DNA of 64,000 nucleotides from Blastococcus saxobsidens (GTDB taxonomy: Bacteria > Actinomycetota > Actinomycetes > Mycobacteriales > Geodermatophilaceae): NCBI RefSeq assembly GCF_002938435.1, contig NZ_POQT01000019.1:1-64000 (forward strand). The letters run 5' to 3'. Both the position numbers and the translations under genes were made by a program. Below are positions 9,727 to 63,452 of the stretch, piece by piece (position 1 is the stretch's first letter; each line of letters begins with the position of its first letter). The notes under the pieces are model-generated. The model made no database searches. It was not told the DNA's origin and saw only the letters and a list, made by a program, of their open reading frames with translations.

Positions 9727-9799
9727 GAGGTGCTGGAACGGCCCCCGTCCAGGGGCCCGTGCTGAGCTTGCGAAGCGCGGGGAGGACGGGGGTCCTTCA
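9727..9799 (+). repeat. Dispersed hairpin element, copy A
   Basis: The element begins GAGGTGCTGGAACGGCCCCC, has an inner arm AGCTTGCGAAG and ends GGACGGGGGTCCTTC. The outer arms GGCCCCCGTCC and GGACGGGGGTCC are complementary. It follows moeZ directly and could act as its terminator. Confidence 0.85.
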
Positions 9800-9857
9800 G
9801 CCGGTCCGCTTTTCTGATCGAGAGGCGGGCCGGGCCCTCGGCATGTTCACTTCTCCC

Positions 9858-10439
9858 ATGTCCGACTTCTCGCCCGTCGAGCTCCTGGAGCTCTTCCAGC
9901 GTGCCCAGAACCAGTTCACCGACCGGGTCGACGCGGTCGAGCCGGACCGCTGGGAGGACCCCTCGCTGCCCGGCTGGACGGTCTCCGACCTGGTCGCGCA
10001 CCTGGTCAGCGAGCAGCTGTGGGTGCCGCCGCTGATGGCCGGCGAGCCGTACGCCGAGGGCCGGTTCCCCGACGACACCAGCGATCTGCTGGGCAACGAC
10101 CCGCTCCTGGGCTGGGAGTCCGCCGCCGACGGCGCGCTGTCGGCGTTCGCCGAGGACGAGGGTCTGATCCGCACCGTGCACCTGTCGCGGGGGCCCACTC
10201 CCGCCGCCGAGTACATCTTCGAGATGACGACGGACCTCACCGTCCACGCCTGGGACCTCGCGCACTCGACCGGCGGCGACACGGAACTGGACGGCGAGCT
10301 GGTGACCGCCGCGCTCGTGTATGCCGAGCGGCTGCCGGAGGACGGCATCCCCGGGGTCTTCGAGGCGCCGCTGGACGTCTCGGCCTCCGCCGATCCACAG
10401 ACGCGGCTGCTGGCCCGCTTCGGGCGCAAGGCGGTCTGA
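9858..10439 (+). CDS. Maleylpyruvate isomerase/DinB-fold protein (TIGR03086-like)
   Basis: A 193-residue protein of the mycothiol-dependent maleylpyruvate isomerase N-terminal fold. It has the signatures WEDPSLPGWTVSDLVAHLVSE near 30-50 and the segment FEMTTDLTVHAWDLAHSTG. The latter carries the His/Asp pattern that in the family coordinates a metal. This corresponds to Rv3205c-like proteins in the same position. The first Met at 9843 and the one at 9858 are both possible; I used the second because family members begin MSDF-like. Members are thought to use mycothiol or an unknown substrate, so no reaction is claimed. It follows the repeat after moeZ. Confidence 0.8.
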   Translation: MSDFSPVELLELFQRAQNQFTDRVDAVEPDRWEDPSLPGWTVSDLVAHLVSEQLWVPPLMAGEPYAEGRFPDDTSDLLGNDPLLGWESAADGALSAFAEDEGLIRTVHLSRGPTPAAEYIFEMTTDLTVHAWDLAHSTGGDTELDGELVTAALVYAERLPEDGIPGVFEAPLDVSASADPQTRLLARFGRKAV

Positions 10440-10526
10440 GCCACGGTACGGGGAGAAATGGCCCGGAGCCGGACATCCCGCCGCCGCAGATGTCCGGCTG
10501 CGGACGACGCTTGCCATGATCGACGG

Positions 10527-10820
10527 GTGGCCGAGGAAGCTGTCGACGTCGACGAGGCGGTGTTCGACGCCGTCGCGGGCATCCCGCCGGGCCGGGTGAG
10601 CACCTACGGGGCCATCGGCCGGCTGGTCGGCGTCGGGCCACGGCGGGTGGCGCGGGCGCTGTCGCAGGGCGGGGGAGCGGTGCCCTGGTACCGGGTCGTG
10701 CGCGCGGACGGTTCGATGGCCGAGCCGGTCCGGGTGCGGCAGGCGGCGCTCCTCGCGGCCGAGGGCGTGCCGGTGCGCGACGGCAGGGTCGTGCTCGACG
10801 CGGTGGGCTGGCCCGACTGA
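10527..10820 (+). CDS. Alkyltransferase-like DNA-binding protein (ATL)
   Basis: A 97-residue protein equal to the DNA-binding domain of O6-alkylguanine-DNA alkyltransferase. The helix-turn-helix VSTYGAIGRLVGVGPRRVARAL is visible from about residue 24, with the Tyr and Arg that flip and hold the damaged base. The methyl-acceptor motif PCHRV is replaced by PWYRV (53-57), so Trp54 stands where the catalytic Cys would be. Such proteins bind O6-alkylguanine without repairing it and pass it to nucleotide excision repair. GTG at 10527 starts the domain cleanly. It lies two genes upstream of adnA, as in mycobacteria (Rv3204). Confidence 0.9.
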   Translation: MAEEAVDVDEAVFDAVAGIPPGRVSTYGAIGRLVGVGPRRVARALSQGGGAVPWYRVVRADGSMAEPVRVRQAALLAAEGVPVRDGRVVLDAVGWPD

Positions 10821-10947
10821 GGCCGGCGGACGAGAACCACGTGGGGCGCGGTCACCGGCGGATGTCCGCCGCATGTCCGGCTTTCCCCGGTGCACCATTT
10901 CCGCGCATTCGCTTCAGTCGTCCGGAATGGCTGCCGATCTCCGGTGC

Positions 10948-11112
10948 ATGAACACCATGGCGTGCCGGGCAGTGGCCCAGGCCGGGCTGGTCGCCGGAAC
11001 CGCATCCCTGGACGAGGAGCGGGCCTTCCCGCTCCTGCTGGTCGCGGGCTGGCTCACCACCGCGGCCGACCTGATGCTGGAGCAGGCGCTCCTGGACTCC
11101 CTGGCGGCCTGA
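10948..11112 (+). CDS. Small hypothetical protein (54 aa)
   Basis: A possible small protein beginning MNTMACRAVAQAGLVAG and ending in the helical stretch MLEQALLDSLAA. Codon third positions are strongly G/C, and the sequence has a plausible amphipathic helix content. No domain is recognised and no clear ribosome-binding site precedes ATG 10948. An upstream in-frame start at 10873 would add 25 residues with poor codon bias. It lies between the alkyltransferase-like gene and adnA on the same strand. It may be real or a chance frame in an intergenic space. Confidence 0.4.
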   Translation: MNTMACRAVAQAGLVAGTASLDEERAFPLLLVAGWLTTAADLMLEQALLDSLAA

Positions 11113-11175
11113 CCCTCTCGTTCCACCCGTCACGTCCGGCGCAGGATCGTCGTACCCCCGTGCTTCCATCGAGGG

Positions 11176-14100
11176 GTGGCACAGCGCGGGGGTGAAGCAG
11201 GTCCGGTCTACCGGCTCCTGCCGGGCGAGCCCCCGCACACCACGCCGCCGGTGCTGGACCCGACGCAGCAGGCCGTCGTCGACCACCCCGGCGGGCCGCT
11301 GCTCGTGCTCGCCGGCCCCGGTACGGGCAAGACGACGACGATCGTCGAGGCCGTCGCCCGCCGCATCGACGCCGGCATCGACCCGGAGCAGATCCTCGTC
11401 CTGACCTTCAGCCGCAAGGCTGCGGCGGAGCTGCGCACCCGCATCACCTCCCGCGTCGCCCGCACCATCCGCGAGCCGCTGGCCCGTACGTTCCACTCCT
11501 ACGCCTACGGCGTCCTCCGCCGAGCCGCCGTGCTCCGCGGGGACCCGCCGCCGCGGCTGCTCACCTCCGCCGAGCAGGACGCCGTCGTCGCCGAGCTGCT
11601 GCGCGGTGACGCCGAGGGCGTCGGCACCGTGCGCTGGCCCGACGACCTGGCGCCGGCGCTGGCCACCGAGGGCTTCCGGGCGGAGCTGCGCGAGCTGCTG
11701 CTGCGCGCCACCGAGCGCGGGGTCGGGGCGGCGCAGCTGGCCGCCTGGGGGCGGGAGACCGGCAACGAGCACTGGGTGCACGCGGCGGCGTTCCAGCAGC
11801 AGTACGAGAACGTCAGCGACTTCTGGGTGGCCTCGCGCGGTGACGCCTCGGGCTACGACCCCGCCGAGCTGGTCCGCCAGGCCATCCTCGAACTGAGCGA
11901 GGACCCGGAGCTCCTGCGCCAGGAGCGGGAGCGCGCCCGCTGGCTGTTCGTCGACGAGTACCAGGACACCGATCCCGCCCAGGTCGAGCTGCTGGAGCTG
12001 CTGGCCGGCGGCGGTGCCAACCTGGTCGCCGTCGGTGACCCGGACCAGTCGATCTACGCCTTCCGCGGCGCCGAGCCCCGCGGCATCGTCGAGTTCCCCG
12101 ACCGCTTCCGGCACACCGACGGCCGCGCGGCCGGCAGGCTGTCGCTCGGCGTGTGCCGCCGGTCGGGCGAGGAACTGCTGCGGGTCAGCCGGCAGGTCGC
12201 CGAGGGGCTGCCCGGGCCGTGGGAGCACCGCCGGCTGGCCGCCGGCGAGGGCGCCCCACCCGGCGAGGCCGAGGTGCACGTCTTCGGTTCCACCGCGGTC
12301 GAGGCCGCCTACGTCGCCGACGTGCTCCGGCGGGCGCACCTGCTCGACGGCGTCCCGTGGTCCCGGATGGCCGTCGTCGTGCGCACGGCCGCGGTGCTGG
12401 GGCCCTTCCGGCGGGCGCTCGCCTCGGCCGGGGTGCCGGTCACCGTCTCCACCGACGACCTCCCGCTGGCCGCCCAGCCCGCGGTGGCTCCCTTCCTGCA
12501 CACGCTGACGGCGCTGCTCCCCGGGCCGGACGGCGAACCGGCGGGCCTGGACGAACCGGCGGCGGAGGCGTTGCTCGCCTCCCCGCTGGGCGGTGCCACC
12601 GTGCTCGACCTGCGCCGCCTGCGCCGCGCGGTCCGCATCGCGCTGGCCAAGCAGGGCGTCGATGCCGCCGAACGGGGCGCCCCGCTGGCGATGGCGCTGG
12701 CCGACGAGGCGCTGCTGGAGGCGCTGCCCGAGCACGTCGTCCGCCCCGCCGCGCGGGTGGCCGCGGTCATGGCCGCCGGACGGTTCGCCCTGGCGCAGGG
12801 CGGCACCGCCGAGGACGTGCTGTGGGCGATGTGGCAGACCAGCGGGCTGGCCACCCGGTGGGCGCGGGCCAGTGCCGCCGACGGCCCGTCGGGGGCCGTG
12901 GCCGACCGCGACCTCGACGCCGTCGTCGCGCTGTTCGACGCCGCCGCCGGCTTCGTAGACCGACTGCCCTCGGCCGACGTCCGCGCGTTCGTCGCGCACC
13001 TGTCGGCGCAGGAACTCCCGGGTGACACCGGCGCCGCGCGCGCCGTGGCGGGCGAGACGGTGCGGCTGCTCACCGCGCACGCCTCCAAGGGTCTGGAGTG
13101 GGAACTGGTCTGCGTCTCCGGCGTGCAGGAGGGCGTCTGGCCGGACCTGCGGGAACGGGCGTCGCTGCTCGGCGCCGAGGTCCTGGTGGAGAAGGTTGCC
13201 GGCATCGACGGTGCCCGCACCGACCGCCGCACCCTCGCGCTCGCCGAGGAGCGCCGGCTCTTCTACGTCGCCTGCACCCGCGCGCGCCGCCGGCTGCTGG
13301 TCACCGCCGTCGAGGGCGCCCTGGACGGCGCCGACGCTGGGGCGACCGCCTCCCGCTTCCTCGACCTGGTCGAGCCGCCGCCGGCCGACGGCCGCCCGCT
13401 CACCGAGCTGCCGCGGGCACTGACGCTGTCCGCCCTCGTCGCCGAGCTGCGGCGCGCGCTCACCGATCCGCACACCCCCGCGCCCAGGCGGTCGGCGGCG
13501 GCCTCGGTGCTGCGCCGGCTGGCCGACGACGGCGTGCCCGGCGCCGCCCCCGCCCGCTGGTGGGGGCTGGCACCGCTGTCCGACGACGCCCCCCTGGTGC
13601 CGGAGGAGGAGCCGGTGCGGGTGCGGCCGTCGGCCATCGAGACCTTCCAGAAGTGCCCCCTGCGCTGGGTGCTCGGCGCGGTGGGCGCGGAGGCCTCCCC
13701 GGACGCGACCCGCACCGTCGGCACGGCGGTGCACGCCGTGGCGCAGCAGGTCGCCGAGGGGCTGTCCGCCGCCGACGCGCGCGCCGTCCTGGACGACGAG
13801 CTCGACCAGCTGGACCTCGGGCCCGGGTGGGCCGACCAGCGGCAGCGGGTCCACGCCCAGGACATGCTCGACCGCTTCCTCCGCTGGCACGTCGCCAACG
13901 GCCGGGAGCTGCTCACCGCCGAGGGCAGCGTCGACGTCGTGGTCGGGCGGGCGCGGATCCGCGGCCAGGTGGACCGGCTGGAGCGCGACGGCGAGGGGCG
14001 CCTGGTCGTCGTCGACCTCAAGACCGGCAAGACGGCGGTCAGGAACACCGAGGAGCACGGCCAGCTCGCCGCCTACCAGGTGGCGATCGCCGCCGGCGGC

Positions 14101-14358: not shown

Positions 14359-17300
14359 CCCGAGGTTCTGGACGGCCCCGTCCCGGGTTCCCTCGCGAGC
14401 GTGCGAGCGGAGGGGAGGACGAGGTCCTTCAACAGCTGTCCTTCGACGACCTGTTCGCCGGTGCCCCGGCCGACGAGCCGGCGCCTCGCCGGCTGCTCAC
14501 CCCGGCCGAGGTCGCCGCACGCTGCGGGCTCTCCTACGCGCCGTCCGACGAGCAGGCCGGCGTCGTGTCCGCGCCGGCCGACCGGCCCCTGGTCGTCGTG
14601 GCGGGGGCGGGATCGGGCAAGACCGAGACGATGGCCGCGCGGGTGTCCTGGCTGGTGGCCAACCGGATCATCGAGCCCGAGGCGATCCTCGGGCTCACCT
14701 TCACCCGCAAGGCCGCGAGCGAGCTCAACGAGCGGATCCGGCTGCGGCTGGGCGCGCTCGCCCGCCACCCGGACACCGAGCCCGATCTGAAGGAGCGGCT
14801 GGGGATCGCCCAGCCGACGGTGTCGACCTACCACGGCTACGCGGCGGCGCTGGTCGCCGAGCACGGGCTGCGCATCGGGGTGGAGCCCGGCGCGGGCGTC
14901 CTCGGCCCGGCGATGTGCTGGGGCCAGGCGACGACGGCGGTCGCCGCGTGGACCGGGGACATGTCCGACGTGCCGCTCTCCCTGCTCACCACCGTCGAGG
15001 ACGTGCTGGCGCTGGCGGCGGAGATGGGCGAGCACGACGTCGCCCCCGCCGCCCTCCGCGCGTGGACCGCCCGGCTCGAGACGCAGATCGCCGGCTACCC
15101 CGACGCCCCGAAGAAGAAGGGGCCCTACGCCGCGGTGACCGAGATGCTCGCCCGGCAGCGGGCCCGGGTGGCGCTGCTGCCGCTGGTCGAGGCCTTCGAG
15201 GCGCGCAAGCGGGCGATGGGCTCGATCGACTACGCCGACCAGGTCGCCTATGCCGCGCGGATCGCCGTGGCGTCGGCGGAGGTCGGCCACCGCGAGCGCG
15301 CCCGCTGGAAGGTCGTGCTGCTCGACGAGTACCAGGACACCAGCGTCGGGCAGCTGCGCATGCTCGAGGCGCTCTTCGGCGGCGACAGCGGCCACCCCGT
15401 GCTGGCCGTCGGCGACCCGCGCCAGTCCATCTACGGCTGGCGCGGCGCGTCGGCCGGCACGATCGAGCGGTTCGCCCGCACCTTCCCCGGCCACCCGGGA
15501 CGCCGGGCCGAGCGGCTGACCCTGGCCACCAGCTGGCGCAACGACGAGGCGGTGCTCGCCGTCGCCAACGCCGTCTCCGGGATGCTGCCCGAGCCGGCCT
15601 CCCCGTTGCCCGATCTGGCTCCGGCGCCGACCGCCGGACGCGGCGCGGTGACCGTCGGGCTCTACGAGACCGTGGCGGAGGAGACCGCCGCCCTGGCCGA
15701 CCGGTTCGCCGCCTGCTGGGAGGGCCGCGACGCCGCCCTGCCGGCCCGGGACGACGGCCGCCCGGCCTCCATGGCGGTGCTGGTCCGCACCCGCAAGCAG
15801 CTGCCGGGCATCGCGGCGGCGCTGCGCGAGCGCGGCCTGCCGGTCGAGGTGGTGGGGCTGGGCGGGCTGCTCGAGGTGCCCGAGGTCTCCGACGTCGTCG
15901 CCACCCTGACGGTGCTGGTCGACCCCACCGCCGGTGACGCCATGGGCCGGCTGCTCACCGGGGCGCGCTGGCGGATCGGCCCGCGCGACCTCGCGGCGCT
16001 CGAGGCGCGGGCCCGGGCGCTGGTGCACTCCCGCCGCCCGGCCCCGCCCGCCGAAGGGGAGGCTGCCGCGGCGGCCACCGCCGAGCCGCCGCAGGAGCGG
16101 GGCAGCATCGTCGAGGCGATCGACGACCTCGGCGACGCCGAGCAGTACTCGCCCACCGGCTACCGGCGGCTGCGCCGCCTGGGCGGCGAGCTGGCCCACC
16201 TGCGCAACCGGATCGGTGAGTCGCTGCCCGACCTGGTCGACGAGGTGGCCCGGACGCTGGGCCTGGAGACCGAGCTGGCCAGCGCGCCCGGGGTCAGCCC
16301 CGCCGGCGCGCGCGCGCACCTGGACGCCCTGCACGGGGTGGCGGCGGAGTTCACCCAGCTGGCCGAGCTGCCCTCGCTGCCGGCGTTCCTGGGCTACCTG
16401 CGTGACGCCGAGGAGCGCGAGCGCGGGCTGGAACCGGGAGAGGTGGCGGTCAACCCGGAGGCCGTCCAGCTGCTCACCGGGCACTCGGCCAAGGGCCTGG
16501 AGTGGGACGTCGTCGCCGTGCCGGGGATGACGGTCGACCAGTTCCCCGCGCGGTCCAACGCCAGCGACTCCTGGATCAAGGACCCGGGTGCCGTCCCGGT
16601 CGACCTGCGGCTCACCGACCGCGAGGAGCTGCCCCGTCTGAAGCTGCCCGTGCCCGGGTCCGGCGACCAGGCGGTGGTGCGCGACGCGCTGGAGGAGTAC
16701 GTCCAGGACTGGAAGGACTTCGGCCGGGACGAGGAGATCCGGCTGGGGTACGTCGCCGTCACCCGCGCCAAGCGGCTGCTGCTGTGCTCGGGCAGCTGGT
16801 GGCGGGACGGGATCAAGCCGTGCGGGCCGTCGTCGCTGCTGCACACCGCCAAGGAGGCCTGCGAGGCCGGCGCCGGCACGGTGGTGCACTGGGCGCCGGC
16901 GCCCGAGGACGGCGCGACCAACCCGGCGCTGGAGGAGTGGCCGGTCGGGCAGTGGCCGGCCGATCCGCTGTCGGAGCCCCGCCGCCGCGCACTGACCGCT
17001 GCCGCCCAGCTGGTCGAGGGTGCCGCGTCCCACCCGCTGGACCCCGACCTCCCGCTCGGCGAGCCCGACGAGCTCGTCGCCCAGTGGGTGCGCGACGCCG
17101 ATCTGCTGCTGCGCGAACGGGCCGTCGCCTCCAGCCCCACGGTGGAGGTCCCGCTGCCCTCGCACCTCTCGGTGTCGGCGCTCGTGACGCTGCGCCGGGA
17201 CCCGGGCGAGCTGGCCCGCCGGCTGCGCCGTCCCATGCCCGCCGCGCCGGCACCCCAGGCCCGTAGGGGCACCGCCTTCCACGCCTGGCTCGAGGAGCGG

Positions 17301-17744: not shown

Positions 17745-17872
17745 CCGATCCCGGGGCGCGCGGGCGCATCCCGCGATCCGGCTGGTTGCGGCACCCGGCC
17801 GGAGCGCGTTCCCATTCCCGTGTCACGTGCGGGGGATGACGGGACCGTCCGGACGAGCACTCGGAGGGCACG

Positions 17873-18292: not shown

Positions 18293-18363
18293 CGCCGGTC
18301 TCGGGTCCGCGGCCCCGCCGGCACGCAGCGCGCACCCGTCGGTCCGGACGAGAGGATGGCGCC

Positions 18364-34788: not shown

Positions 34789-34804
34789 AGGTCCGGAACG
34801 GCGA

Positions 34805-34833
34805 ACGGCGGCGTCCAGGCAGGACGCCGCCGT
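34805..34833. terminator. Hairpin terminator
   Basis: ACGGCGGCGTCC and GGACGCCGCCGT form a perfect 12-bp stem with a 5-base loop between the DUF5679 gene and the ThiF-like gene. Confidence 0.65.
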
Positions 34834-34836
34834 CGT

Positions 34837-34908
34837 GAGGTGCCGGGGCGGCCACCCTCCCGGGGCCCGCGCCGAGCGTGCGAGGCGTGGGTAGGAGGGT
34901 GGTCCTTC
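34837..34908 (+). repeat. Dispersed hairpin element, copy C
   Basis: GAGGTGCCGGGGCGGCCACC and GGAGGGTGGTCCTTC carry the outer stem with different bases from other copies, but each arm matches the other (GGCCACCCTCC with GGAGGGTGGTCC). It abuts the DUF5679 stop. Confidence 0.8.
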
Positions 34909-34909: not shown

Positions 34910-35062
34910 TCAGGCCTTGCCGAGGATCCGGTTCATCTTGGTGCCGCAGACGGGGCAGGTGCCCTGCGCCATCCGGCGACCGGACTCGCTGACCTTGACC
35001 TCACCGTCGAAGTCGCGCTTCTCCTTGCACTTCACGCAGTAGCCGTTGTAGCTCTCCGCCAC
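34910..35062 (-). CDS. DUF5679 small zinc-ribbon protein
   Basis: A 50-residue protein beginning VAESYNGYCVKCKEKR and ending CPVCGTKMNRILGKA, the DUF5679 signature. Two CxxC pairs (Cys9/Cys12 and Cys36/Cys39) make a zinc ribbon. It is rich in Lys/Arg between the pairs, so nucleic-acid or ribosome binding is plausible but unproven. GTG 35060-35062 has GAGGAG six bases upstream. The stop is contiguous with a dispersed hairpin element. High conservation of this tiny protein across actinobacteria argues for a core role. Confidence 0.92.
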   Translation of the reverse strand: MAESYNGYCVKCKEKRDFDGEVKVSESGRRMAQGTCPVCGTKMNRILGKA

Positions 35063-35472: not shown

Positions 35473-36063
35473 GTGCCCGCGACCCCGCCCGATGCCACCG
35501 CCCTGCCAGAACCGGCGGACGGCGATGTCGTGGAGGTCCGGCGCAGCCCCCGCCGTCGCCGCACGGTGACCGCCTACCGGGAGATGGGGCGCACCGTCGT
35601 GCTGATCCCGGCGGCGTTCAGCCCCGCCGAGGAGCAGCGCTGGGTGGCCCAGATGGTCGCCAAGCTGCGCACTCGTGAGGAGCGCCGCAAGCGCTCGCTG
35701 GGCGGGGACAACGAGCTGATGGCCCGAGCACGATCGCTGTCGGCGGCCTACCTCGACGGGCTGGCGGAGCCGGCCGGCGTCCGGTGGGTCGACAACCAGC
35801 ACCGCCGCTGGGGTTCCTGCACCCCGGCCGATCGCAGCATCCGGTTGTCCAGCCGGCTGCAGTCGATGCCCGACTACGTCGTCGACTACGTGCTGGTGCA
35901 CGAGCTGGTGCACCTGCTCGAGCCGGGCCACGACGAGCGCTTCTGGGCGCTGGTCGCCCGCTATCCGCGGGCGGAGCGCGCCCGCGGTTTCCTCGAGGGC
36001 GTGGAGCTCGCCGCCACGGCCGGTGCGGCCGGGCAGGAGCCCACGCCCGACGACGTGGACTGA
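35473..36063 (+). CDS. YgjP-like (DUF45) zinc metallopeptidase
   Basis: A 196-residue protein of the YgjP/DUF45 M48-like family. The signature RWGSC precedes the zinc motif HELVHLLEPGHDERFW, with HExxH plus a downstream His. The N-terminal half carries the family segment RRSPRRRRTVTAYREMG. GTG 35473 follows GGTTCCTCC and is chosen because upstream codons lose the family match. It converges on DUF2342 across two tail-to-tail hairpin elements. E. coli YgjP has been linked to nucleotide hydrolysis, so peptidase activity should not be assumed. Confidence 0.88.
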   Translation: MPATPPDATALPEPADGDVVEVRRSPRRRRTVTAYREMGRTVVLIPAAFSPAEEQRWVAQMVAKLRTREERRKRSLGGDNELMARARSLSAAYLDGLAEPAGVRWVDNQHRRWGSCTPADRSIRLSSRLQSMPDYVVDYVLVHELVHLLEPGHDERFWALVARYPRAERARGFLEGVELAATAGAAGQEPTPDDVD

Positions 36064-36123
36064 CGGCCCCCTCCAGAGGCTCGGCCGGAGCGGGCGAGGG
36101 CTGAGGGGGAGGGGGTCCTCTTA
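36064..36123 (+). repeat. Dispersed hairpin element, copy D1
   Basis: GGCCCCCTCCAGAGGCTCGG through GGAGGGGGTCCTC. It starts at the YgjP-like stop codon. The outer arms pair as CCCCCTCC with GGAGGGGG. Confidence 0.75.
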
Positions 36124-36182
36124 CTGCTCCCCACCGCTCGCACGCTCGCGGCGGGGCCTGCAGCAGGGCCGTTCCAGCACGT
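36124..36182 (-). repeat. Dispersed hairpin element, copy D2 (degenerate)
   Basis: On the minus strand GTGCTGGAACGGCCCTGCTG and the inner GCGAGCGTGCGAGC identify the element. It faces D1 tail-to-tail between two convergent genes. Confidence 0.7.
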
Positions 36183-36204
36183 CACCCGGCCGGCGCCGGG
36201 GGTG

Positions 36205-37576: not shown

Positions 37577-37632
37577 GAAGGACCCCGTCCCCCTCACCGC
37601 TCGCACGCTCGCGGCGAGCCTCCGGACGGGGC
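37577..37632 (-). repeat. Dispersed hairpin element, copy E
   Basis: On the minus strand GGCCCCGTCCGGAGGCTCGC is followed by GCGAGCGTGCGAGC and GGACGGGGTCCTTCC. It lies in a divergent promoter region, unlike most copies. Confidence 0.8.
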
Positions 37633-37687
37633 CACGGGTCCGCGGGCCTCCGGCGTCCTCCAGCGGCGCGACATAGGCTCGCGCCTC

Positions 37688-41946: not shown

Positions 41947-41977
41947 CCCCGCGCCGGTGGTAGCCTGATCTCACCGA

Positions 41978-42054
41978 CGCGGGGTGGAGCAGCTCGGTAG
42001 CTCGCTGGGCTCATAACCCAGAGGTCGCAGGTTCGAATCCTGTCCCCGCTACCA
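41978..42054 (+). tRNA. tRNA-fMet (CAT), initiator, copy 1
   Basis: 77 nt with encoded CCA. The CAT anticodon sits in a loop with a stem ending in three G:C pairs (CTGGG/CCCAG), the D-stem has A11:U24 and position 1 is C unpaired with T72. These are initiator marks. T72 replaces the usual A72, still leaving 1:72 unpaired. Confidence 0.96.
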
Positions 42055-42059
42055 CCACG

Positions 42060-42089
42060 AAGGCCCGGTCCCCCAGGGGACCGGGCCTT
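42060..42089 (+). terminator. Terminator after tRNA-fMet copy 1
   Basis: AAGGCCCGGTCCC and GGGACCGGGCCTT form a 13-bp stem 6 bp after the CCA end. Confidence 0.8.
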
Positions 42090-42103
42090 CGTCGTCGTCG
42101 GGG

Positions 42104-43883: not shown

Positions 43884-43964
43884 GGGCGGATCCTGCCCGT
43901 CTCCGGGCCCTCCCGGACCGGGCTGCGGCATGGGATCGGCGCGGGTGTATGGTTGGTCTACCGA

Positions 43965-44041
43965 CGCGGGGTGGAGCAGCTCGGTAGCTCGCTGGGCTCA
44001 TAACCCAGAGGTCGCAGGTTCGAATCCTGTCCCCGCTACCA
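43965..44041 (+). tRNA. tRNA-fMet (CAT), initiator, copy 2
   Basis: Identical over 77 nt to the copy at 41978, including encoded CCA, three G:C pairs in the anticodon stem, A11:U24 and C1/T72. TATGGT at 43948-43953 could be its -10. Confidence 0.96.
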
Positions 44042-44044
44042 CTA

Positions 44045-44078
44045 CGAGGGCCCGGTCACCACGGTGACCGGGCCCTCG
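44045..44078 (+). terminator. Terminator after tRNA-fMet copy 2
   Basis: CGAGGGCCCGGTCACC and GGTGACCGGGCCCTCG form a stem of up to 16 bp directly after the tRNA. The sequence differs from the terminator of copy 1. Confidence 0.8.
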
Positions 44079-44172
44079 TCGTTCCTCCCCACCCCCGGTT
44101 GTGCGTGATGCAACCTTTTCCCCGCCGATATGGCCGGGTGTGTTGTGTGTCACCCGTCCGTGTCTCTAGCGT

Positions 44173-46680: not shown

Positions 46681-46989
46681 GTGATCCTCGAACACGCCCT
46701 GCTCACCGTGCGGCCCGGGGAGCAGGCGGCCTTCGAGGCGGCGTTCACCGAGGCCCGGCGGTTCATCGCCACCAGTCCCGGCTTCCGCCGGCTCACCCTG
46801 TCCCGCTGCCTCGAGCGGGACACGGGCTACCTGCTGCTGGTCGAGTGGGACCGGCTGGAGGACCACACGGAGGGCTTCCGCGGCTCTGCCGCCTACCAGC
46901 AGTGGCGGGCGCTATTGCACTCCTTCTACGACCCGTTCCCGGTGGTCGAGCACTTCACGACGGTGCTGACGGCGGACCCGGCCGCCTGA
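46681..46989 (+). CDS. Antibiotic biosynthesis monooxygenase family protein
   Basis: A 102-residue dimeric alpha+beta-barrel protein. ILEHALLTVRPGEQAAFEAA starts the fold, followed by the segment GFRRLTLSRCLERDTGYLLLVEW and the C-terminal AAYQQWRALLHSFYDPFPVV. These match the ABM family, whose members oxidise aromatic substrates or act as haem-degrading enzymes. GTG 46681. Its 3' end overlaps the convergent HTH gene by 64 bp. No active-site residue can be fixed. Confidence 0.87.
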   Translation: MILEHALLTVRPGEQAAFEAAFTEARRFIATSPGFRRLTLSRCLERDTGYLLLVEWDRLEDHTEGFRGSAAYQQWRALLHSFYDPFPVVEHFTTVLTADPAA

Positions 46990-47300
46990 CCCAGGCGGTG
47001 AGCGCCGGCCCGGTCGGCGAGCCCGCCGAGCTGCTCGGCCAGCTCGTCGAGGGGCAGGCCGAGGGCGTGCGCGAGCGCGGCCAAGGTGAAGAACGTGGGC
47101 GTCGGCACCCGCCCTGACTCGATCGTGCGCAGCACCTCGAGGCCCACGCCGGAGGTGGCCGCCACCTCCGCGGGGGACCGGTCGCCCCGGACCTGCCGCA
47201 GCAGGGCGCCTAGGCTCTTTTCCCGGCCCGTCCGGAGGCTCGCCCCGAGCGTGCGGGGGGTGAGGAGGACGTGGTCCTTCCCATACCGGGACAGCAACAC
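46926..47300 (-). CDS. XRE-type helix-turn-helix regulator with uncertain start
   Basis: The C-terminal about 85 residues form a clear Cro/C1-type HTH: LLRQVRGDRSPAEVAATSGV, then LEVLRTIESGRVPTP and FFTLAALAHALGLPLDELAEQL. No standard start lies near the expected N-terminus. The next in-frame GTG is at 47298-47300, and translation from there reads through hairpin copy F in the antisense direction. Either the repeat forms the N-terminal 20-odd residues or a non-standard start is used. The stop overlaps the convergent monooxygenase. It is divergent from map. Confidence 0.72.
   Translation of the reverse strand: MLLSRYGKDHVLLTPRTLGASLRTGREKSLGALLRQVRGDRSPAEVAATSGVGLEVLRTIESGRVPTPTFFTLAALAHALGLPLDELAEQLGGLADRAGAHRLGQAAGSAVSTVVKCSTTGNGS
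47224..47280 (+). repeat. Dispersed hairpin element, copy F
   Basis: GGCCCGTCCGGAGGCTCGCC, the inner GAGCGTGCGGG and GGACGTGGTCCTTCC. It lies between the map start and the HTH regulator and may overlap the regulator's coding region. Confidence 0.8.
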
Positions 47301-54465: not shown

Positions 54466-54496
54466 GGGGGCGCGGGCCGGGCCGGAGACTCTCCGG

Positions 54497-55207
54497 GTGG
54501 CCACCCCGACCGTCGACGCCTTCGCAGCGCTCGCGCGCTCCTCGCCGTGGCGGTGGACGACGCTGCGCTTCGGCGTGAGCTGGCCGGCGGACCGGTGGAA
54601 GCCGGGTGCGGTGCGGGCCTGGCTCCGGCGCCCGGACCGGCTGCGCGTGGAGTCGCGGGACGGCGACCTCCTGCAGGTGGTCCGGGAGCCGCCCAGGAAC
54701 CCGGCGCCGGGGCCAGCGGCCCGCCCGGACGGGCTGGTCGCGGAGCGGCGCCGGTCGTGGGAACACGACCTGGACGACCCGATGCACCAGGACTACCACT
54801 GGGTGGCGATGCTGGACCCGGTGGAGCTGGCCGACGGGCGTGATCGGGACACCGACGCCCTGGTGGCCGCCCTGGACGTGCGCTCGCTGGCGGAGGTCGA
54901 CCACGGGGGGCGCCCGGCCTGGGAGGCCGTCGTCCGGCCGACGCCGGCGTACGAGCCGCGCTGCGGCTGCTGCCCGCTGCTCCGCTCGCGGGAGGTGGAC
55001 CTGGACGAGTACCGCGACCACCCGCAGCAGATCCTGGCGGAGTACCCGGACGCCTACCGGGTGCGGCTGGACGTGGGGACCGGTGTGTGCGTGCTGACCG
55101 AGGAGCTCGGTGGGCTGCGCCCGGGGCACGGGCACGACCTGCGCATCGAGGCGGTCGACGAGCCCATGGACGACGCGCTGTTCGTGGTCCCGCGCCGGTG
55201 GTGGTGA
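54497..55207 (+). CDS. Conserved actinobacterial protein of unknown function (236 aa)
   Basis: A 236-residue protein beginning VATPTVDAFAALARSSPWRW. The middle segment RRSWEHDLDDPMHQDYHWVAML and the C-terminal CGCCPLLRSREVDLDEYRDHP give the look of an alpha/beta domain, with three Cys close together that could bind zinc. It ends DALFVVPRRWW. I do not recognise a family. GTG 54497 is chosen by codon bias. A hairpin element abuts its stop codon. It is after the TCGACA array and may be controlled there. Confidence 0.72.
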   Translation: MATPTVDAFAALARSSPWRWTTLRFGVSWPADRWKPGAVRAWLRRPDRLRVESRDGDLLQVVREPPRNPAPGPAARPDGLVAERRRSWEHDLDDPMHQDYHWVAMLDPVELADGRDRDTDALVAALDVRSLAEVDHGGRPAWEAVVRPTPAYEPRCGCCPLLRSREVDLDEYRDHPQQILAEYPDAYRVRLDVGTGVCVLTEELGGLRPGHGHDLRIEAVDEPMDDALFVVPRRWW

Positions 55208-55275
55208 GGTGCTGGAACGGCCCCGTCCGGAGGCTCGCGCCGAGCGGAGCGAGGGGTGAGAGGACGGGGTCTTTC
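55206..55275 (+). repeat. Dispersed hairpin element, copy G
   Basis: GAGGTGCTGGAACGGCCCCG, the inner CTCGCGCC/GGAGCGAG and GGACGGGGTCTTTCA. It fills the space between two convergent stop codons exactly. Confidence 0.85.
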
Positions 55276-56266: not shown

Positions 56267-56292
56267 CCGCCGGGCATCGCGCTGGTGGCCGC

Positions 56293-57576
56293 TCAGGAGT
56301 GCGCCCCGATCCGCTCGCCGAGCAGGCCCGCCCACCGCTCGCGGAAGTCCGGGAGGGTCTTGGTCACCGCGCCGGGGTCGGCCACGGTCACGCCCTCGAC
56401 GACCAGCCCGAGCACGGCGGCGGCCATGACCATCCGGTGGTCGGCGTAGGAGTCGAGCTGCGCGGGCCGGCTCGGTCCGGGCTCGATCTCCAGGCCGTCG
56501 GGCAGCTGGCGCACCCGCGCGCCGACGGCGCTGAGCACCTCGTCGAGGGCCTGCAGGCGGTCGGTCTCGTGGCCGCGCAGGTGCCCGATCCCGGTGAGCC
56601 GCGACGGCCCGTCGGCCAGGGCGCAGAGCGCGGCCAGCACGGGGGTCAGCTCACCCACCTCGCCCAGGTCGGCGACCAGCGGCCGGATCGCGGCCCCACC
56701 GGTGACCCGCAGCCCGCCGTCGGCGGTGCGGGCCACCTCGGCCCCCATCTCCGCCAGGAGGCGGTCGAGCTGCGCGCCGGGCTGGGTGGTCCGCTCCGGC
56801 CAGTCGCGCACCGTCACCTGCCCGCCGGTGACCAGCGCCGCCGCGAGGAACGGGGCGGCGTTGGAGAGGTCGGGTTCCACCACCCGGTCCAGCGCGCGCA
56901 CCGGGCCCGAGGCCACGCGCCAGCCGCGGTCGGTCGCCTCGACGTCGACGCCGTGCTCGCGCAGCGTCGTCACGGTCATCTCGACGTGCGGCATCGAGGG
57001 GACCCCGCCGGTGAGGGCGAGGTCGATGCCCGCGTCGAACCTCGCCGCGGCCAGCAGCAGCCCGGAGACGATCTGCGAGGACTCGCTCGCGTCGACGGTC
57101 ACGGCACCGCCGCGCACCCTGCCCGTGCCGCGCACGGTGAACGGCGCCCGCCCACGGCCGTCGTCGTCCACCTCGACGTCCAGCGCGCGGAGGGCGGCGA
57201 TCAGCCCGGCGTTGGGTCGCTCGCGCAGCCGCACGTCGCCGTCGACGGTCACCGCGCCGTCGGCGAGCGCGGCCACCGGCGGGAGAAAGCGCAGGATCGT
57301 GCCGGCCAGCCCGGCGTCGACCGTGACCGGGCCGTGCAGCGTGCCGGGCGTGACCAGCCAGTCCTCGCCGTCCTCGACGATCCGCACCCCGAGAGCCCGC
57401 AGCGCACCGGCCATCAGGTCGGTGTCGCGGGCCCGCAGCGGGCGGACCAGGCGGCTCGGCCCGTCGGCCAGCGCCGCGAGCACCAGCGCCCGGGCGGTGA
57501 GGGACTTGGAGCCCGGCAGGCCGACGACGGCGTCGACAGGGGATGGGTGGTGCGGCACGGGCCAGGCAGGCGTCAC
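56293..57576 (-). CDS. aroA: 3-phosphoshikimate 1-carboxyvinyltransferase (EPSP synthase)
   Basis: A 427-residue shikimate-pathway enzyme. The signatures GLPGSKSLTARALVLAAL near 19-36, LAGTILRFLPP, RERPNAGL and DYADHRMVM show the two-domain inside-out barrel; Lys and Arg in the first and last bind PEP and shikimate-3-phosphate. The common glyphosate-sensitive GNAGTxxR loop reads GLAGTILR. GTG/ATG 57576 begins MTPAWPVPHH. It heads a unit with rsgA, as in Rv3227-Rv3228. Confidence 0.96.
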   Translation of the reverse strand: MTPAWPVPHHPSPVDAVVGLPGSKSLTARALVLAALADGPSRLVRPLRARDTDLMAGALRALGVRIVEDGEDWLVTPGTLHGPVTVDAGLAGTILRFLPPVAALADGAVTVDGDVRLRERPNAGLIAALRALDVEVDDDGRGRAPFTVRGTGRVRGGAVTVDASESSQIVSGLLLAAARFDAGIDLALTGGVPSMPHVEMTVTTLREHGVDVEATDRGWRVASGPVRALDRVVEPDLSNAAPFLAAALVTGGQVTVRDWPERTTQPGAQLDRLLAEMGAEVARTADGGLRVTGGAAIRPLVADLGEVGELTPVLAALCALADGPSRLTGIGHLRGHETDRLQALDEVLSAVGARVRQLPDGLEIEPGPSRPAQLDSYADHRMVMAAAVLGLVVEGVTVADPGAVTKTLPDFRERWAGLLGERIGAHS

Positions 57577-57596
57577 GGGTCCATCCTGCCTGGCCC

Positions 57597-57652
57597 TGCG
57601 GCCCCGCTGCAGGGGCCCGCCACGAGCTTGCGAGTGGTTGGGGGGGTCCTTC
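57597..57652 (+). repeat. Dispersed hairpin element, copy H
   Basis: CGGCCCCGCTGCAGGGGCC with the inner ACGAGCTTGCGAGT and GGGGGGGTCCTTC. The arms are less perfect than in other copies. It lies after the aldehyde dehydrogenase stop. Confidence 0.7.
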
Positions 57653-57658
57653 TACCGT

Positions 57659-59122: not shown

Positions 59123-59260
59123 GCCGTGATCCTCGTCTCTCGTCGAGCGTTGCGACAGGGGGCCCTACCCGTCGACCGCGGGCGCACGCACGGTCACCGG
59201 TCGTCGGTGGGCGCACCTAGAGTTCGAACGGTCAGCCCGATCCGTGCCGAGGAGGCGCCC

Positions 59261-60007: not shown

Positions 60008-60008
60008 C

Positions 60009-61541
60009 GTGAGCACGGCGACCGACCGGCCCCGCGCCGGCGACGAGGCCGCCGGCAGCACGGCGCTGCCCGGCTGGGTGGCGGCGGGGATCACCTTCCT
60101 GTGCTCCGGCGCCGTCCTGGTGATGGAGATCGTCGGCCTGCGGCTGATCGCGCCCTACGTCGGCGTCACGGTCCAGACGAGCACGGCGATCATCGGGTTC
60201 GCGCTGGCGGCGATCGCGCTGGGCGCCTGGACCGGCGGCGCCGTCGCCGACCGCGCGGACCCGCGCCGGCTGCTGGCCCCGCTCATGGTCGCCGGCGGTG
60301 CGCTGATCGTGGCCGTGCTGCCGCTGGTGAGGTTCACCGGCGCCGCGCTCAGCGGCGCCGACGCCGGGGGAGTGCTGCTGCTGGCGGCGGTCGCCGTGGT
60401 CGTGCCGGCGGCGCTGCTGTCCGCCGTCCCGCCGATGGTGGTGAAGCTGCAGCTGGCCAGCCTGTCGGAGACCGGCTCGGTGGTCGGCAAGCTGTCGGGC
60501 ATCGGCACGCTCGGCGGGATCGCGGCCACCTTCGCCACGGGCTTCGTGCTGGTGGCGGTGCTGCCCAGCAGCGTCATCCTGGTGGCCACCGGCGCGGTCA
60601 CCGCGCTGGCCGGGATCGCCGTCGCCGTGCTGCTGCGCCGGGTGCCCGGCGCGGGCCGCCTGCCCGCAGGCCTGCTGGTGCTGGCGGTGGCCGGCGGGGG
60701 GCTGGCGGCGGTCGCGCCGACGCCGTGCGAGGAGGAGACCGCGTACCACTGCGCGAGGGTGGTGGCCGACCCGCAGCGGGACTCCGGCCGGGTGCTGCTG
60801 CTGGACACGCTGCGCCACTCCTACGTCGACCTCGAGGACCCGACGCACCTGGAGTTCCAGTACGTGCGGGCCGTCGCCGCCGTCACCGACGCGGTGTTCG
60901 CCGAGGGGGAGCCGCTGTCCGCGCTGCACGTCGGAGGCGGCGGGCTGACGCTGCCCCGCTATCTGGCCGAGGTCCGGCCCGGCACGGAGAGCCTGGTCAT
61001 CGAGGTCGACCCCGGCGTGGTCGCGATGGACCGGGAGCAGCTGGGGCTGGAGACGTCCGAGGAGCTGCGGGTGCGCGTGGCCGACGGCCGGGTCGGGCTG
61101 GCCGAGGAGCCCGGCGGGCAGCGGGACCTGGTGGTCGGCGACGCGTTCGGCGGCCTGTCGGTGCCGTGGCAGCTGACCACCCTCGAGGCGGCGCGGCTGA
61201 TCGACCGCGCCCTGACCGACGACGGCGTCTACGCGGTCAACCTGATCGACCACCCGCCGCTGTCCTTCGTGCGCGCGGAGCTGGCCACGCTGCGGGAGGT
61301 GTTCGGCCACGTCCTGCTGCTGGCCCGCGCGCCGGCGCTCGCCGGGGAGGACGGCGGCAACCTGGTCGCCGTCGCCTCGCAGCGGCCGCTGCCGGCCGAG
61401 GAGATCGCTGCGGCGCTGGGCGAGCGGGAGCTGGAGTGGCAGGTGGCCGGCGGGGACGAGCTGGACCGGTTCGTGGGCGACGCCGGCGTGCTCACCGACG
61501 ACTTCGCCCCCGTCGACCAGCTCCTCACCCCGTACGGCTGA
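60009..61541 (+). CDS. Fused MFS-like membrane/spermidine synthase-like protein
   Basis: A 510-residue protein. About seven hydrophobic segments fill residues 20-235, then a spermidine-synthase-like methyltransferase/aminopropyltransferase domain follows. It is recognised from LHVGGGGLTLPRYLAEVRPG with EVDPGVVAMDREQLG and VVGDAFGGLSVPWQL. Such fusions are known from actinobacteria, and membrane-bound polyamine-like chemistry is suspected but not shown. GTG 60009 is one base after the SRAP stop codon, so the two form a unit. The Gly-rich and Asp motifs for dcSAM are partly altered. Confidence 0.88.
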   Translation: MSTATDRPRAGDEAAGSTALPGWVAAGITFLCSGAVLVMEIVGLRLIAPYVGVTVQTSTAIIGFALAAIALGAWTGGAVADRADPRRLLAPLMVAGGALIVAVLPLVRFTGAALSGADAGGVLLLAAVAVVVPAALLSAVPPMVVKLQLASLSETGSVVGKLSGIGTLGGIAATFATGFVLVAVLPSSVILVATGAVTALAGIAVAVLLRRVPGAGRLPAGLLVLAVAGGGLAAVAPTPCEEETAYHCARVVADPQRDSGRVLLLDTLRHSYVDLEDPTHLEFQYVRAVAAVTDAVFAEGEPLSALHVGGGGLTLPRYLAEVRPGTESLVIEVDPGVVAMDREQLGLETSEELRVRVADGRVGLAEEPGGQRDLVVGDAFGGLSVPWQLTTLEAARLIDRALTDDGVYAVNLIDHPPLSFVRAELATLREVFGHVLLLARAPALAGEDGGNLVAVASQRPLPAEEIAAALGERELEWQVAGGDELDRFVGDAGVLTDDFAPVDQLLTPYG

Positions 61542-61562
61542 CGAGCCCCGTCCCCGTCGTGG

Positions 61563-61595
61563 GGGTCACCGGCCGATGGCGGCGGTGCGGGCGCG
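61563..61595 (+). repeat. 33-bp direct repeat, copy 1
   Basis: GGGTCACCGGCCGATGGCGG and the next 13 bases are identical to 61701-61733. It lies in the 162-bp space before the YbaK gene and has no reading frame of its own. Confidence 0.85.
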
Positions 61596-61700
61596 CCCGC
61601 CGCCCGGTTCGCGGCCCTGCCGCCGCGCGGGTCAACCCGCGCCGCGGTCTCTCGAGCCGTGCCGTGGCCCGGTTCGACGGTCGGCGGTCCGGGTTGAGCC

Positions 61701-61733
61701 GGGTCACCGGCCGATGGCGGCGGTGCGGGCGCG
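61701..61733 (+). repeat. 33-bp direct repeat, copy 2 (inside the YbaK gene end)
   Basis: The same 33 bp, here covering the stop codon and last residues of the YbaK-family gene. The 138-bp offset includes a non-coding segment. Confidence 0.85.
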
Positions 61734-62177
61734 GGTGAGCCGCACCAGGTCGGCGGGCGGGAGCTCCAGCTGCAGACCACGCTTTCCGGCGCTGACCAGG
61801 ACCGTGCCGAACTCCAGGGCCGTGGCGTCGACGACGGTGGGCAGCGCCTTCTTCTGACCCAGCGGGCTGATCCCGCCGAGCACGTAACCGGTGGCCCGTT
61901 CAGCGTCCGCCGGCTCGGCCATGACCGCCTTGCGCCCGCCGGCGGCGGCCGCCAGGGCCTTGAGGTCCAGGGTGCCGCTGACCGGCACCACCGCGACGGT
62001 GAGCACCCCGTCGACGCGGGTCACCAGCGTCTTGAACACCTGGCGGGGATCGGCGCCCAGCGCGGCGACGGCGGCCTCGCCGTGGCCCTGCTCGGCCGGG
62101 TGCTCCGGGTCGTAGGGGTGCAGGGAGTGGGCCACGTTCGCCCGTTCCAGGATCCGCACCGCAGGGGTCGCTGCCAC
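61704..62177 (-). CDS. YbaK/EbsC-type aminoacyl-tRNA deacylase
   Basis: A 157-residue deacylase of the YbaK family that clears Cys-tRNAPro or similar mischarged tRNAs. The fold is visible in [56 protein letters not shown] and the final [19 protein letters not shown]. Lys in the first segment and the GISPLG loop form the pocket. GTG 62175-62177. It is divergent from sigR, with the SigR promoter between. Its last 10 codons are copied in the upstream repeat. Confidence 0.93.
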
Positions 62178-62207
62178 GGCGCGGGAGCGTAGCGAGAACC
62201 GGCGACG

Positions 62208-62235
62208 GGGAATGAGCGCGCCGCCCCTCGCCGTT
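62208..62235 (+). promoter_or_regulatory. sigR: SigR-dependent promoter of sigR
   Basis: GGGAAT at 62208-62213 and CGTT at 62232-62235 are separated by 18 bp (19 to the GTT), within the GGAAT-N18/19-GTT consensus. It lies about 140 nt upstream of the main GTG start and gives positive autoregulation. Confidence 0.75.
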
Positions 62236-62373
62236 GCACCGGCCGTGAGCAACACCGTCTCCAGCGCCCGCCCGCGGGTCGCGCACCGGCGTCCCCCGGG
62301 CCGCCCGGATGCCGCGCGGCTAGGATCGACCGAAGTGGCGCCCCGCGTCCCGGGGCTCCGGAGAGGACGGTCG

Positions 62374-63069
62374 GTGCCTGAGGAGTCCGCGGTCGACGAT
62401 CCTGGTCAGCTGCCCGAGGTGGCGGGGCCGGTCGAGGTGCCGGAGGCCCGCGAGGGTGGCAGCCGCACCGAGATCGCCGAGACCCGCGCCGAGCGCGACG
62501 CCCGGTTCGAGCGGGATGCGCTGCCCTACCTGGACCAGCTGTACCCGGCCGCCCTGCGGATGACCCGGAACCCGGCCGACGCCGAGGACCTCGTGCAGGA
62601 GACGTTCGTCAAGGCCTACTCCGCGTTCCACCAGTTCGCCGAGGGCACGAACCTCAAAGCCTGGCTGTACCGGATCCTGACGAACACCTACATCAACAGC
62701 TACCGGAAGAAGCAGCGCCAGCCGCAGCAGTACCCCACCGAGCAGGTGCAGGACTGGCAGCTGTACGCGGCCGAGGAGCACAGCTCCACCGGCCTGCGGT
62801 CGGCCGAGATCGAGGCGCTGGACCACCTGCCGGACTCCGACATCAAGGACGCCCTCCAGCAGCTGCCCGAGGACTTCCGGCTGGCGGTGTACCTCGCCGA
62901 CGTCGAGGGGTTCGCCTACAAGGAGATCGCCGAGATCATGGGCACGCCGATCGGCACGGTGATGTCGCGGCTGCACCGCGGCCGGCGGGGCCTGCAGAAG
63001 CTGCTGGCCGATTACGCCCGTGAGCGCGGATTCGTCCGTGCCGGAGCCGGTGAGGAGGCGAGCCACTGA
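62374..63069 (+). CDS. sigR: ECF sigma factor SigR/SigH
   Basis: A 231-residue group 4 sigma factor for disulfide stress. Region 2 spans about 50-110 ([29 protein letters not shown] is its start), and region 4 about 165-220 ([18 protein letters not shown] and then [20 protein letters not shown]). GTG 62374 follows GGAGAGGA. The reading frame stays open 54 codons upstream to 62212 with GTG at 62245 in frame, echoing the SigR' isoform of Streptomyces. It overlaps rsrA (TGATG), as in the SigR-RsrA unit. Confidence 0.95.
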
Positions 63070-63398
63070 TGGGCGACGACGCTTCGCAGGCCGGCGAGCC
63101 GATCGAGATCCACTCGTGCGACGACGTCCTCACGCACGTCTTCGAGTTCCTCGACCACGAGACCGGGGACGACCGCCGGGCGCTGATCGCCGAGCACCTC
63201 GAGGACTGCTCCTCCTGCCTGCGCGAGTTCGGCATCGAGCAGGAGTTCAAGGCGCTGGTGCGCCGCCGCTGCGGTGGCGACAAGCCGCCGACCGGCCTGC
63301 GCGACCGCATCAAGATGCAGCTCACCAGCGTGTCCATCGAGGACGACGGCACCACGGTGAGCGTCGAGCGCGTCACGATCGAGCGCACCGGCGACTGA
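63069..63398 (+). CDS. rsrA: RsrA-type mycothiol-system anti-sigma factor
   Basis: A 109-residue zinc anti-sigma factor. It binds SigR and releases it when its thiols form disulfides. The ZAS motif is H43-x3-C47-x2-C50 (AEHLEDCSSCLREF), with Cys17 and Cys68 as further redox or zinc ligands. The C-terminal part is a small beta domain. ATG 63069 overlaps the sigR stop by one base. A dispersed hairpin element begins at its stop codon. Confidence 0.95.
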   Translation: MGDDASQAGEPIEIHSCDDVLTHVFEFLDHETGDDRRALIAEHLEDCSSCLREFGIEQEFKALVRRRCGGDKPPTGLRDRIKMQLTSVSIEDDGTTVSVERVTIERTGD

Positions 63399-63399
63399 C

Positions 63400-63452
63400 A
63401 AAGGACCTCGTCCTCCCCACCCTTCGCAAGCTCAGGGCGGGACGAGGCCGAA
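63400..63452 (-). repeat. Dispersed hairpin element, copy I
   Basis: On the minus strand CGGCCTCGTCCCGCCCTGAG and GGACGAGGTCCTTTG form the outer stem (CTCGTCC with GGACGAG), a compensated variant of the other copies. It lies right after rsrA. Confidence 0.85.

Follow-up and report, generated by a model that had tools for sequence, protein, structure and literature searches.

The palindromic repeats most similar to the element described here are the GTAG-type repetitive extragenic palindromes (REPs) that are accompanied by a REP-associated tyrosine transposase (RAYT). According to passages of PMC3733652, they are imperfect hairpins of 20–40 nt with one unpaired GTAG end, which reach high copy numbers, lie mostly in intergenic regions between co-directional or convergent genes and near the 3' ends of open reading frames, where their termini often provide a TAG stop codon, and have some copies inside genes. 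In the same passages, Di Nocera and colleagues report REPs inside repair genes, including recBCD and kin of UvrD/Rep, and describe CGTC-type REPs, mostly from alphaproteobacteria, which have a stem of 8–9 bp, a loop of 4–5 nt and a CGTC end and to which that paper assigned no dedicated transposase. Also cited there are the elements RPE-1, RPE-4 and RPE-6 of Rickettsia, palindromes that occur in frame within proteins of different function. Some REPs of Escherichia coli are positioned after stop codons; the relevant passages of PMC12306157 give 446/4,072 at ≤15 nt from a stop, and 260/496 in an earlier study cited there. A family of hairpins comparable to these systems is present in Blastococcus saxobsidens (Geodermatophilaceae), where ten copies (A to I, with D1 and D2 as a pair) are located in the first 64,000 nt of contig NZ_POQT01000019.1 (assembly GCF_002938435.1; C19:1-64000), a stretch referred to in the following as the window. 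With a probability of roughly 0.78, the family represents a non-autonomous, REP-like mobile palindrome, which bears out one of the two readings offered in an earlier note on this DNA.

One protein of the window has its closest relatives in Blastococcus, with identities of up to 96%. The genome (4.52 Mb in 86 contigs) was searched with a covariance model (R1) built from 14 copies, seven of them from the window; copies D2, H and I were not among the input. All ten copies named in the earlier note were recovered within a few bases of where it had placed them (E 7.6e-18 to 1.3e-5), and the next-best matches in the window had E 0.0021 or worse. The note had named a lack of further copies as an outcome that would refute it, but the covariance-model search it had proposed returned at least 150 matches in the genome; the 3'-terminal part of the consensus, GGACGGGGTCCTTC, has 25 exact genomic sites compared with 1 for the reversed control. 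Removal of duplicates and of rows shorter than 55 nt (which excluded D2 and I) reduced 161 aligned rows (149 in alignment A3 and 12 in alignment A4) to 147 copies. Counts of arms and wobbles refer to the 135 of these copies that are contained in A3, and counts of junction motifs to 136 copies. Genes were called by a codon-usage script, and their start positions are approximate; counts given as made by eye were taken from printed sequences.

Matches to R1 (E ≤ 1e-4) occur in 22 of the 23 genomes of the genus sample, that of B. saxobsidens included, with 2 (G016) to at least 150 matches each; one genome (G001) has none. At the family level, the element is present in 28 of the 38 sampled genomes of Geodermatophilaceae and in 9 of their 12 genera, and no match was obtained in 295 other genomes of the class, which were searched with stricter filters and with few candidates scored per genome. 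As far as sampled, the element is confined to Geodermatophilaceae. One genome (G335) has no match, though three other sampled members of its genus (g126) have 73, 138 and 142, which represents a second natural absence beside G001. A spread via phages or plasmids was considered and rejected: neither plasmid nor phage collections contain a match to copy E (86 nt), and viral contigs contain none to one element pattern. Rfam holds no family that scores above its gathering threshold for the element and recognized only two tRNAs in the window. Literature searches listed no report of these repeats in Geodermatophilaceae; the passages of PMC9686282 that use the term “palindromic” deal with clustered regularly interspaced short palindromic repeats.

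The core consensus of the element reads GGCCCCGTCC - RGRGG - CTCGCCCC - GAGCNNGCGA - GGGGTGAG - RR - GGACGGGGTCCTTC and folds into two stems, the outer with 10 pairs and the inner with 8, which are separated by a 5+2 internal loop and capped by a terminal loop (GAGCNNGCGA) of about 10 nt. The ends are imperfectly complementary (GAACGGCC and, at the 3' end, GGTCCTTC). The total length is about 61 nt, or about 73 nt with an optional 5' tag (GGTGACGTGCTGGAAC); 45 of the 147 copies carry a tag that ends in TGCTGGAAC or in a close variant of it. The shared layout described in the earlier note therefore holds with the restriction that GGTGCTGGAAC is optional and that long forms are limited to these 45. 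With 61–73 nt and two stacked stems, the element differs from the shorter GTAG REPs, and neither its stems (10 and 8 pairs) nor its loop (about 10 nt) fits the CGTC type. At one locus of the genome (L005, G000:C4:7819-7847), the element lacks its hairpin, and GTGACGTGCTGGAACGGACGGGGTCCTTC is left.

Both the diversity of the arms and a test in which the 3' arms were re-dealt among the copies argue that pairing has been maintained during sequence drift. The outer arms comprise 42 distinct 8-mers (n = 135), and 119 copies are fully paired, compared with 24.8 after re-dealing; for the inner arms, there are 47 distinct 8-mers, and 104 copies are paired, compared with 22.7. Among the 140 distinct rows of A3, 92.0% of the cells are paired, 16 of the 21 pairs show double changes, doubly changed cells number 382 vs 121.8 after shuffling, and the covariation score is 0.416 vs 0.161, all in an alignment that was fitted to the covariance model and is thus biased towards the structure. 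In the window, arms that differ in sequence but remain paired, which the earlier note had reported for C, D1, G and I, are present in C, D1 and I and also in D2 and A (one extra pair), whereas the outer arms of G equal the consensus; copies B and F carry arm changes that do not pair. The note had concluded from such arms that pairing is under selection. That pairing is kept is evident, but this does not imply a function as RNA, because a hairpin used in mobilisation, or hairpin-templated correction, may explain it.

The wobble pairs indicate on which strand the constraint acts. In the strand as written, the 135 copies contain 280 G·T and 13 A·C wobbles; after omission of two positions with a usual G·T, the numbers are 79 and 10 (p = 2e-14), which places the constraint on the strand as written. 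The folded strand is opposite to the mRNA of the gene on the 3' side in 110 of the 147 copies, and the folded form is therefore more likely a DNA strand than the tail of that mRNA. A single-strand fold and a place behind the stop codon are also features of integron attC sites, which have R'/R'' core sites and go with an integron integrase.

The copies are sharply positioned with respect to genes on their 3' side. Co-directional genes with their ends towards the 3' side of the element flank 70 of the 147, and convergent genes flank 39; groups of 16 and 15 face a gene start, and four have a neighbour on one side only. With at least 150 matches and only 3/147 called inside genes, the element is, like the GTAG REPs, a high-copy, mostly intergenic imperfect palindrome. 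The convergent setting stressed in the earlier note is thus frequent, but the co-directional one is the commonest. A gene end lies on the 3' side of 110 copies, and its stop codon is found at −3 to +6 nt in 92 of them (57 co-directional, 34 convergent and one at a contig end), with a mode at +1; the 5' side shows no comparable sharpness. A location directly at a stop codon, which the note had ascribed to most copies, therefore applies to the genome at large (92/147) but not to copies A, B, E and F of the window. The element resembles the E. coli REPs in this position, and the proportion of 92/147 within −3 to +6 nt may be set against the proportions given above.

The junction itself carries a short motif that can be recognized without gene calls: the 9 nt that follow GGTCCTT include TCA, CTA or TTA in 82 of 104 cases, compared with 7% of control stretches, and in 14 of 28 copies that face a gene start, compared with 6%. 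Among the 33 copies facing a gene start, 17 have a −10-like TANNNT in the next 13 nt or overlapping their last two bases, compared with 0 of 231 control stretches, which were taken at other distances rather than from element-free promoters. The motif begins 3 nt past the element in nine of these 17; of the 110 copies facing a gene end, one has the motif. A C precedes TGA at 64 of 74 element-adjacent stops, compared with 218 of 323 stops of the same loci, a set that includes the element-adjacent ones (p = 0.001). At the 92 stop junctions, the docking motif is mostly CTGA (64/92), and only 11/92 have the GTAG that characterizes the ends of GTAG REPs. We take these patterns, and the position of copy A beside a TCAG that ends no gene there, to mean that the element prefers short AT-containing motifs, represented in this genome by stop codons and −10 boxes. 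At 75% G+C, AT motifs occur chiefly at these two kinds of site, which would explain why the copies gather at gene ends and promoters.

Comparison of orthologous sites among relatives revealed a mosaic of occupied and empty sites. At site A (29 loci, by eye), 15 loci have no element, two a fragment and 12 an element, with differing arms; 11 of the 12 occupied loci have the element in the orientation opposite to that in B. saxobsidens, and one (L017) has one copy each way. At site G (23 genomes, by eye), ten genomes have an element, two a fragment and 11 none; arm types vary, and the stop codon is present in 23/23. A mosaic of this kind also emerges across five relatives for sites C, D, E, F, H and I. 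At site F, the two relatives without the element (G009 and G017) have kept about 60 bp that include the ATG of a helix-turn-helix (HTH) gene on the minus strand, and this segment is missing in B. saxobsidens and G005, where the element is present. The start region of that HTH gene (46926-47300) has seemingly been replaced by copy F.

The location of 92 copies at −3 to +6 nt from a stop codon would also be expected of a regulatory hairpin in the 3' untranslated region that lowers or protects the expression of the upstream gene and that, having arrived by transposition, is kept for this effect, and the REPs of E. coli at ≤15 nt from stop codons, discussed in passages of PMC12306157, provide a proposed precedent. 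Occupancy, however, is not conserved at most of the compared sites, and the wobbles favour the other strand, which makes this explanation unlikely. The second reading of the earlier note, bidirectional terminators, here taken as intrinsic ones with a fixed place at gene ends that selection for the RNA stem maintains, would agree with the strong covariation, the location after stop codons and the 39/147 copies between convergent genes. It is highly improbable, because orthologous stops differ in whether they have an element, in its orientation and in its arms, 33 copies face a gene start, the wobbles favour not the mRNA strand of the abutting gene but the opposite one, and one of the 23 genomes of the genus has no match. 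Moreover, at least four T in the last 4 nt of the element plus 12 nt of flank are present in 4/147 copies on the plus reading of the element and in 0/147 on the minus reading. A further 9-bp inverted repeat within 100 nt beyond the element exists in 24 of 92 cases, compared with 63 of 215 element-free gene ends, so that element-bearing gene ends are no poorer in hairpins of their own; such repeats also occur in 38 of 288 stretches inside genes, and only a minority of gene ends has one. At site A, a terminator-like hairpin follows, by eye, in most stretches irrespective of the element (some stretches end before that point). The terminator reading was rejected on the mosaic occupancy, the hairpin comparison and the scarcity of T-runs.

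Several loci contain nested copies. At site G, the genome of G005 has the 5' half of a copy resembling that of B. saxobsidens up to its loop (GAGCGT), which is followed by a complete copy with other arms that ends at the same stop codon. The same layout of a half and a complete copy is present at another locus of B. saxobsidens (L160) and at the G sites of two other relatives (L207 and L210), and an array on contig C7 (L157, G000:C7:71360-71600) consists of four identical 45-bp half-units, the last of which runs into a full element. Such half-unit arrays, together with the many differing paired arms, which hairpin-templated correction would yield, and the negative enzyme searches (Y1_Tnp and RVT_1), are also compatible with an enzyme-free spread by template switching and quasi-palindrome correction in replication or repair. 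By itself, this process does not account for docking at the stops and −10 boxes of scattered loci, and it appears rather improbable as an explanation of the family.

The small size, the many copies and the imperfectly complementary ends (GAACGGCC and GGTCCTTC) recall a classical miniature inverted-repeat transposable element, the descendant of a DNA transposon that is bounded by terminal inverted repeats. The ends, however, form the imperfect base of the hairpin with its usual mismatch, pairs of empty and filled sites in the (diverged) relatives show no target-site duplication by eye, and the junction is tight at the 3' end and loose at the 5' end; such an origin is very unlikely. The combination of tight 3' and loose 5' junctions also led to consideration of a reverse-transcriptase mechanism, which was rejected: the RVT_1 domain is absent from the genome of B. 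saxobsidens and present in 4 of the 23 genus genomes (G005, G007, G018 and G022), which have 4 (G007) to 137 R1 matches, so that its presence does not follow copy number. A RAYT as the mover, as in the GTAG REPs, was rejected as well, because a Y1 transposase domain (Y1_Tnp, PF01797) was detected neither in B. saxobsidens (0/1) nor in the genus (0/23) or the family (0/96, B. saxobsidens included), and was positive in 5 of 14 control genomes. The earlier note's remark that no transposase is near holds for the 16 window proteins scanned with Pfam, the other genes of the window lying outside that scan. Because the behaviour of the element is REP-like but it lacks two defining features of the GTAG type and its stems do not fit the CGTC type, it is classified as a REP-like variant whose mover was not found.

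Some copies are open in frame. At site B, an R1 match is present in 12 of 78 loci of relatives, and in all 13 occupied sites (the window included) the frame is open over the 70 codons shown; the encoded peptides are RPRSGFPRELASGGENGVLQQ-like and run into QLSFDDL or its counterpart (in L054, straight into LPGM). The occupied sites, which need not be independent of each other, are spread across Blastococcus, Geodermatophilus and Modestobacter, and the closest B locus (L009, 96%) has no element. Seven further loci of site B (L039, L044, L046, L058, L063, L067 and L068), proposed on a loose motif, were rejected in the absence of an R1 match at the junction. In five of them (L039, L044, L058, L063 and L068), sequence with a GAGC/GCGAGC motif follows the upstream stop at the helicase junction, the overlapping frame is stopped, and the helicase gene seemingly begins further down.

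The B subtype has three sites in the genome, and the other two are likewise located in coding frames (residue numbers are counted from the preceding stop codon). One copy is located close to the C terminus of PanD (at aa 364 of 389, with the domain at 223-336). A RecD2-like helicase contains the second, on the other strand, at aa 495, which falls between its HHH and AAA domains. Among copies of the common type, a heavy-metal P-type ATPase has one between its HMA and ATPase domains, an AAA ATPase-like frame has another, and a further one lies near the C terminus of a frame without a Pfam match. Palindromic copies thus appear, to judge from the open frames, to have become predicted protein sequence in repair helicases (AddA-like and RecD2). 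The likeness to the REPs that Di Nocera and colleagues found inside repair genes is notable. The presence in frame within proteins of different function (the 13 of 13 B sites, RecD2, the metal P-type ATPase and PanD) is reminiscent of the Rickettsia elements in its placement; by contrast, intragenic copies are few here, and most copies lie at gene ends.

Taken together, these observations are best accommodated by the following model, in which the family, its fold, the docking, the mosaic occupancy, the nested arrays and the open frames are observed, whereas movement itself, the order of re-docking and the role of a folded single DNA strand are inferred. One strand folds into a long hairpin of outer and inner stem, whose 3' end (GGTCCTTC) docks directly 5' of TCA, CTA or, less often, another short motif that contains AT; a few copies lie in frame inside genes. 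The 5' junction is loose, and flanking DNA can be lost along with docking. At an already occupied stop, the 5' end of the new copy would join the loop of the older one, whose 3' half would be lost, and repeated docking would leave trails of half-elements. In its full form, in which the folded single DNA strand is the moving or recognized form, is moved by an enzyme outside the HUH Y1 (RAYT) group aimed at the stop codons and −10 boxes of GC-rich genomes, re-docks at occupied stops with countable half-element trails, and has become coding sequence in AddA-like and RecD2 repair helicases, the model is conceivable but has a less than even chance of being correct.

Several points weigh against a mobile palindrome of this kind. 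The searches for Y1_Tnp and RVT_1, which left aside other families of transposases and recombinases, found no mobilising enzyme. No insertion was observed as it happened, and divergence among the relatives leaves most empty sites less than base-perfect, which also limits the failure to see target-site duplications by eye. Close pairs share the same arm type at the same site (site C in B. saxobsidens and G009, site H in B. saxobsidens and G005), which indicates that copies are also stably inherited, and founder inheritance could contribute to the wobble bias. The units of the C7 array are identical, which favours tandem duplication over serial docking. The docking signature is missing from 18 of the 110 copies facing a gene end and from 16 of the 33 facing a gene start, the TANNNT controls contain no element-free promoters, and the excess of G before TAG (11 of 14 vs 22 of 41) is not significant (p = 0.12).

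The ten copies of the window illustrate the range of contexts. Copy A (9725..9798, plus strand; 75.5 bits, E 1.1e-16), a long form with 5' tag, is preceded by the stop (9722) of a ThiF/rhodanese gene and followed by a terminator-like hairpin (by eye at about 9800-9836); its 3' end adjoins TCAG, which is not the stop of the gene located there (an MDMPI_N gene on the plus strand). Copy B (14370..14430, plus; 72.3 bits) lies within the overlapping start of an open reading frame and forms part of the predicted N terminus of a UvrD-helicase/PDDEXK (AddA-like) protein (MTRGSGRPRPGFPRERASGGEDEVLQQLSFDDL). Copy C (34847..34908, plus; 68.4 bits), with the arms CCACCCTCC/GGAGGGTGG, is followed at 34910 by the stop complement (TCA) of a minus-strand gene; a separate hairpin beyond it (34803-34835) is itself a weak, chance-level match to R1. 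Copy D1 (36061..36121, plus; 75.1 bits), with the arms CCCCCTCC/GGAGGGGG, overlaps the stop codon that ends at 36063 and is arranged tail to tail with D2 (36122..36185, minus; 31.5 bits, E 1.3e-5), which has a 5' tag at 36167-36185 and whose 3' end was lost or replaced by D1. Copy E (37577..37637, minus; 80 bits, E 7.6e-18) lies between divergent starts and is absent in G009; a −10-like TACCGT that belongs to the plus-strand gene is located 7 nt from its 3' end.

Copy F (47221..47280, plus; 66.6 bits) is located between two genes and upstream of their starts, the HTH gene on the minus strand and a peptidase M24 gene on the plus strand. Convergent genes flank the long form G (55204..55275, plus; 65.9 bits), whose 3' end falls on the stop codon of a gene for an RsgA-like GTPase. 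In copy H (57596..57652, plus; 42 bits, E 3e-8), the right arm is partly deleted; the stop codon of a gene for an aldehyde dehydrogenase is 6 nt away from the copy, and a separate hairpin (about 57560-57595, by eye) lies beyond it. Copy I (63400..63453, minus; 52.5 bits) directly follows the stop (63398) of a zf-HC2 gene and is itself followed by a separate terminator-like hairpin (63456-63492); G009 has a terminator-like hairpin there and no element. Apart from the element, the window contains two tRNA-Met (CAT) genes about 2 kb apart (41973-42095 and 43960-44082), which are part of a 123-nt repeat with 94% identity.

The family extends REP-like biology to an actinobacterial family in which no RAYT domain was detected. 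Its docking signature, a stop codon or a −10 box, predicts the locations of copies, and the trails of half-elements seem to record repeated insertion at one site. The in-frame copies provide a tractable case of a palindromic repeat that turns into protein sequence in DNA-repair enzymes. Because the numbers of matches range from none to at least 150 within one genus, the movement of transposase-less REPs becomes testable in Geodermatophilaceae.

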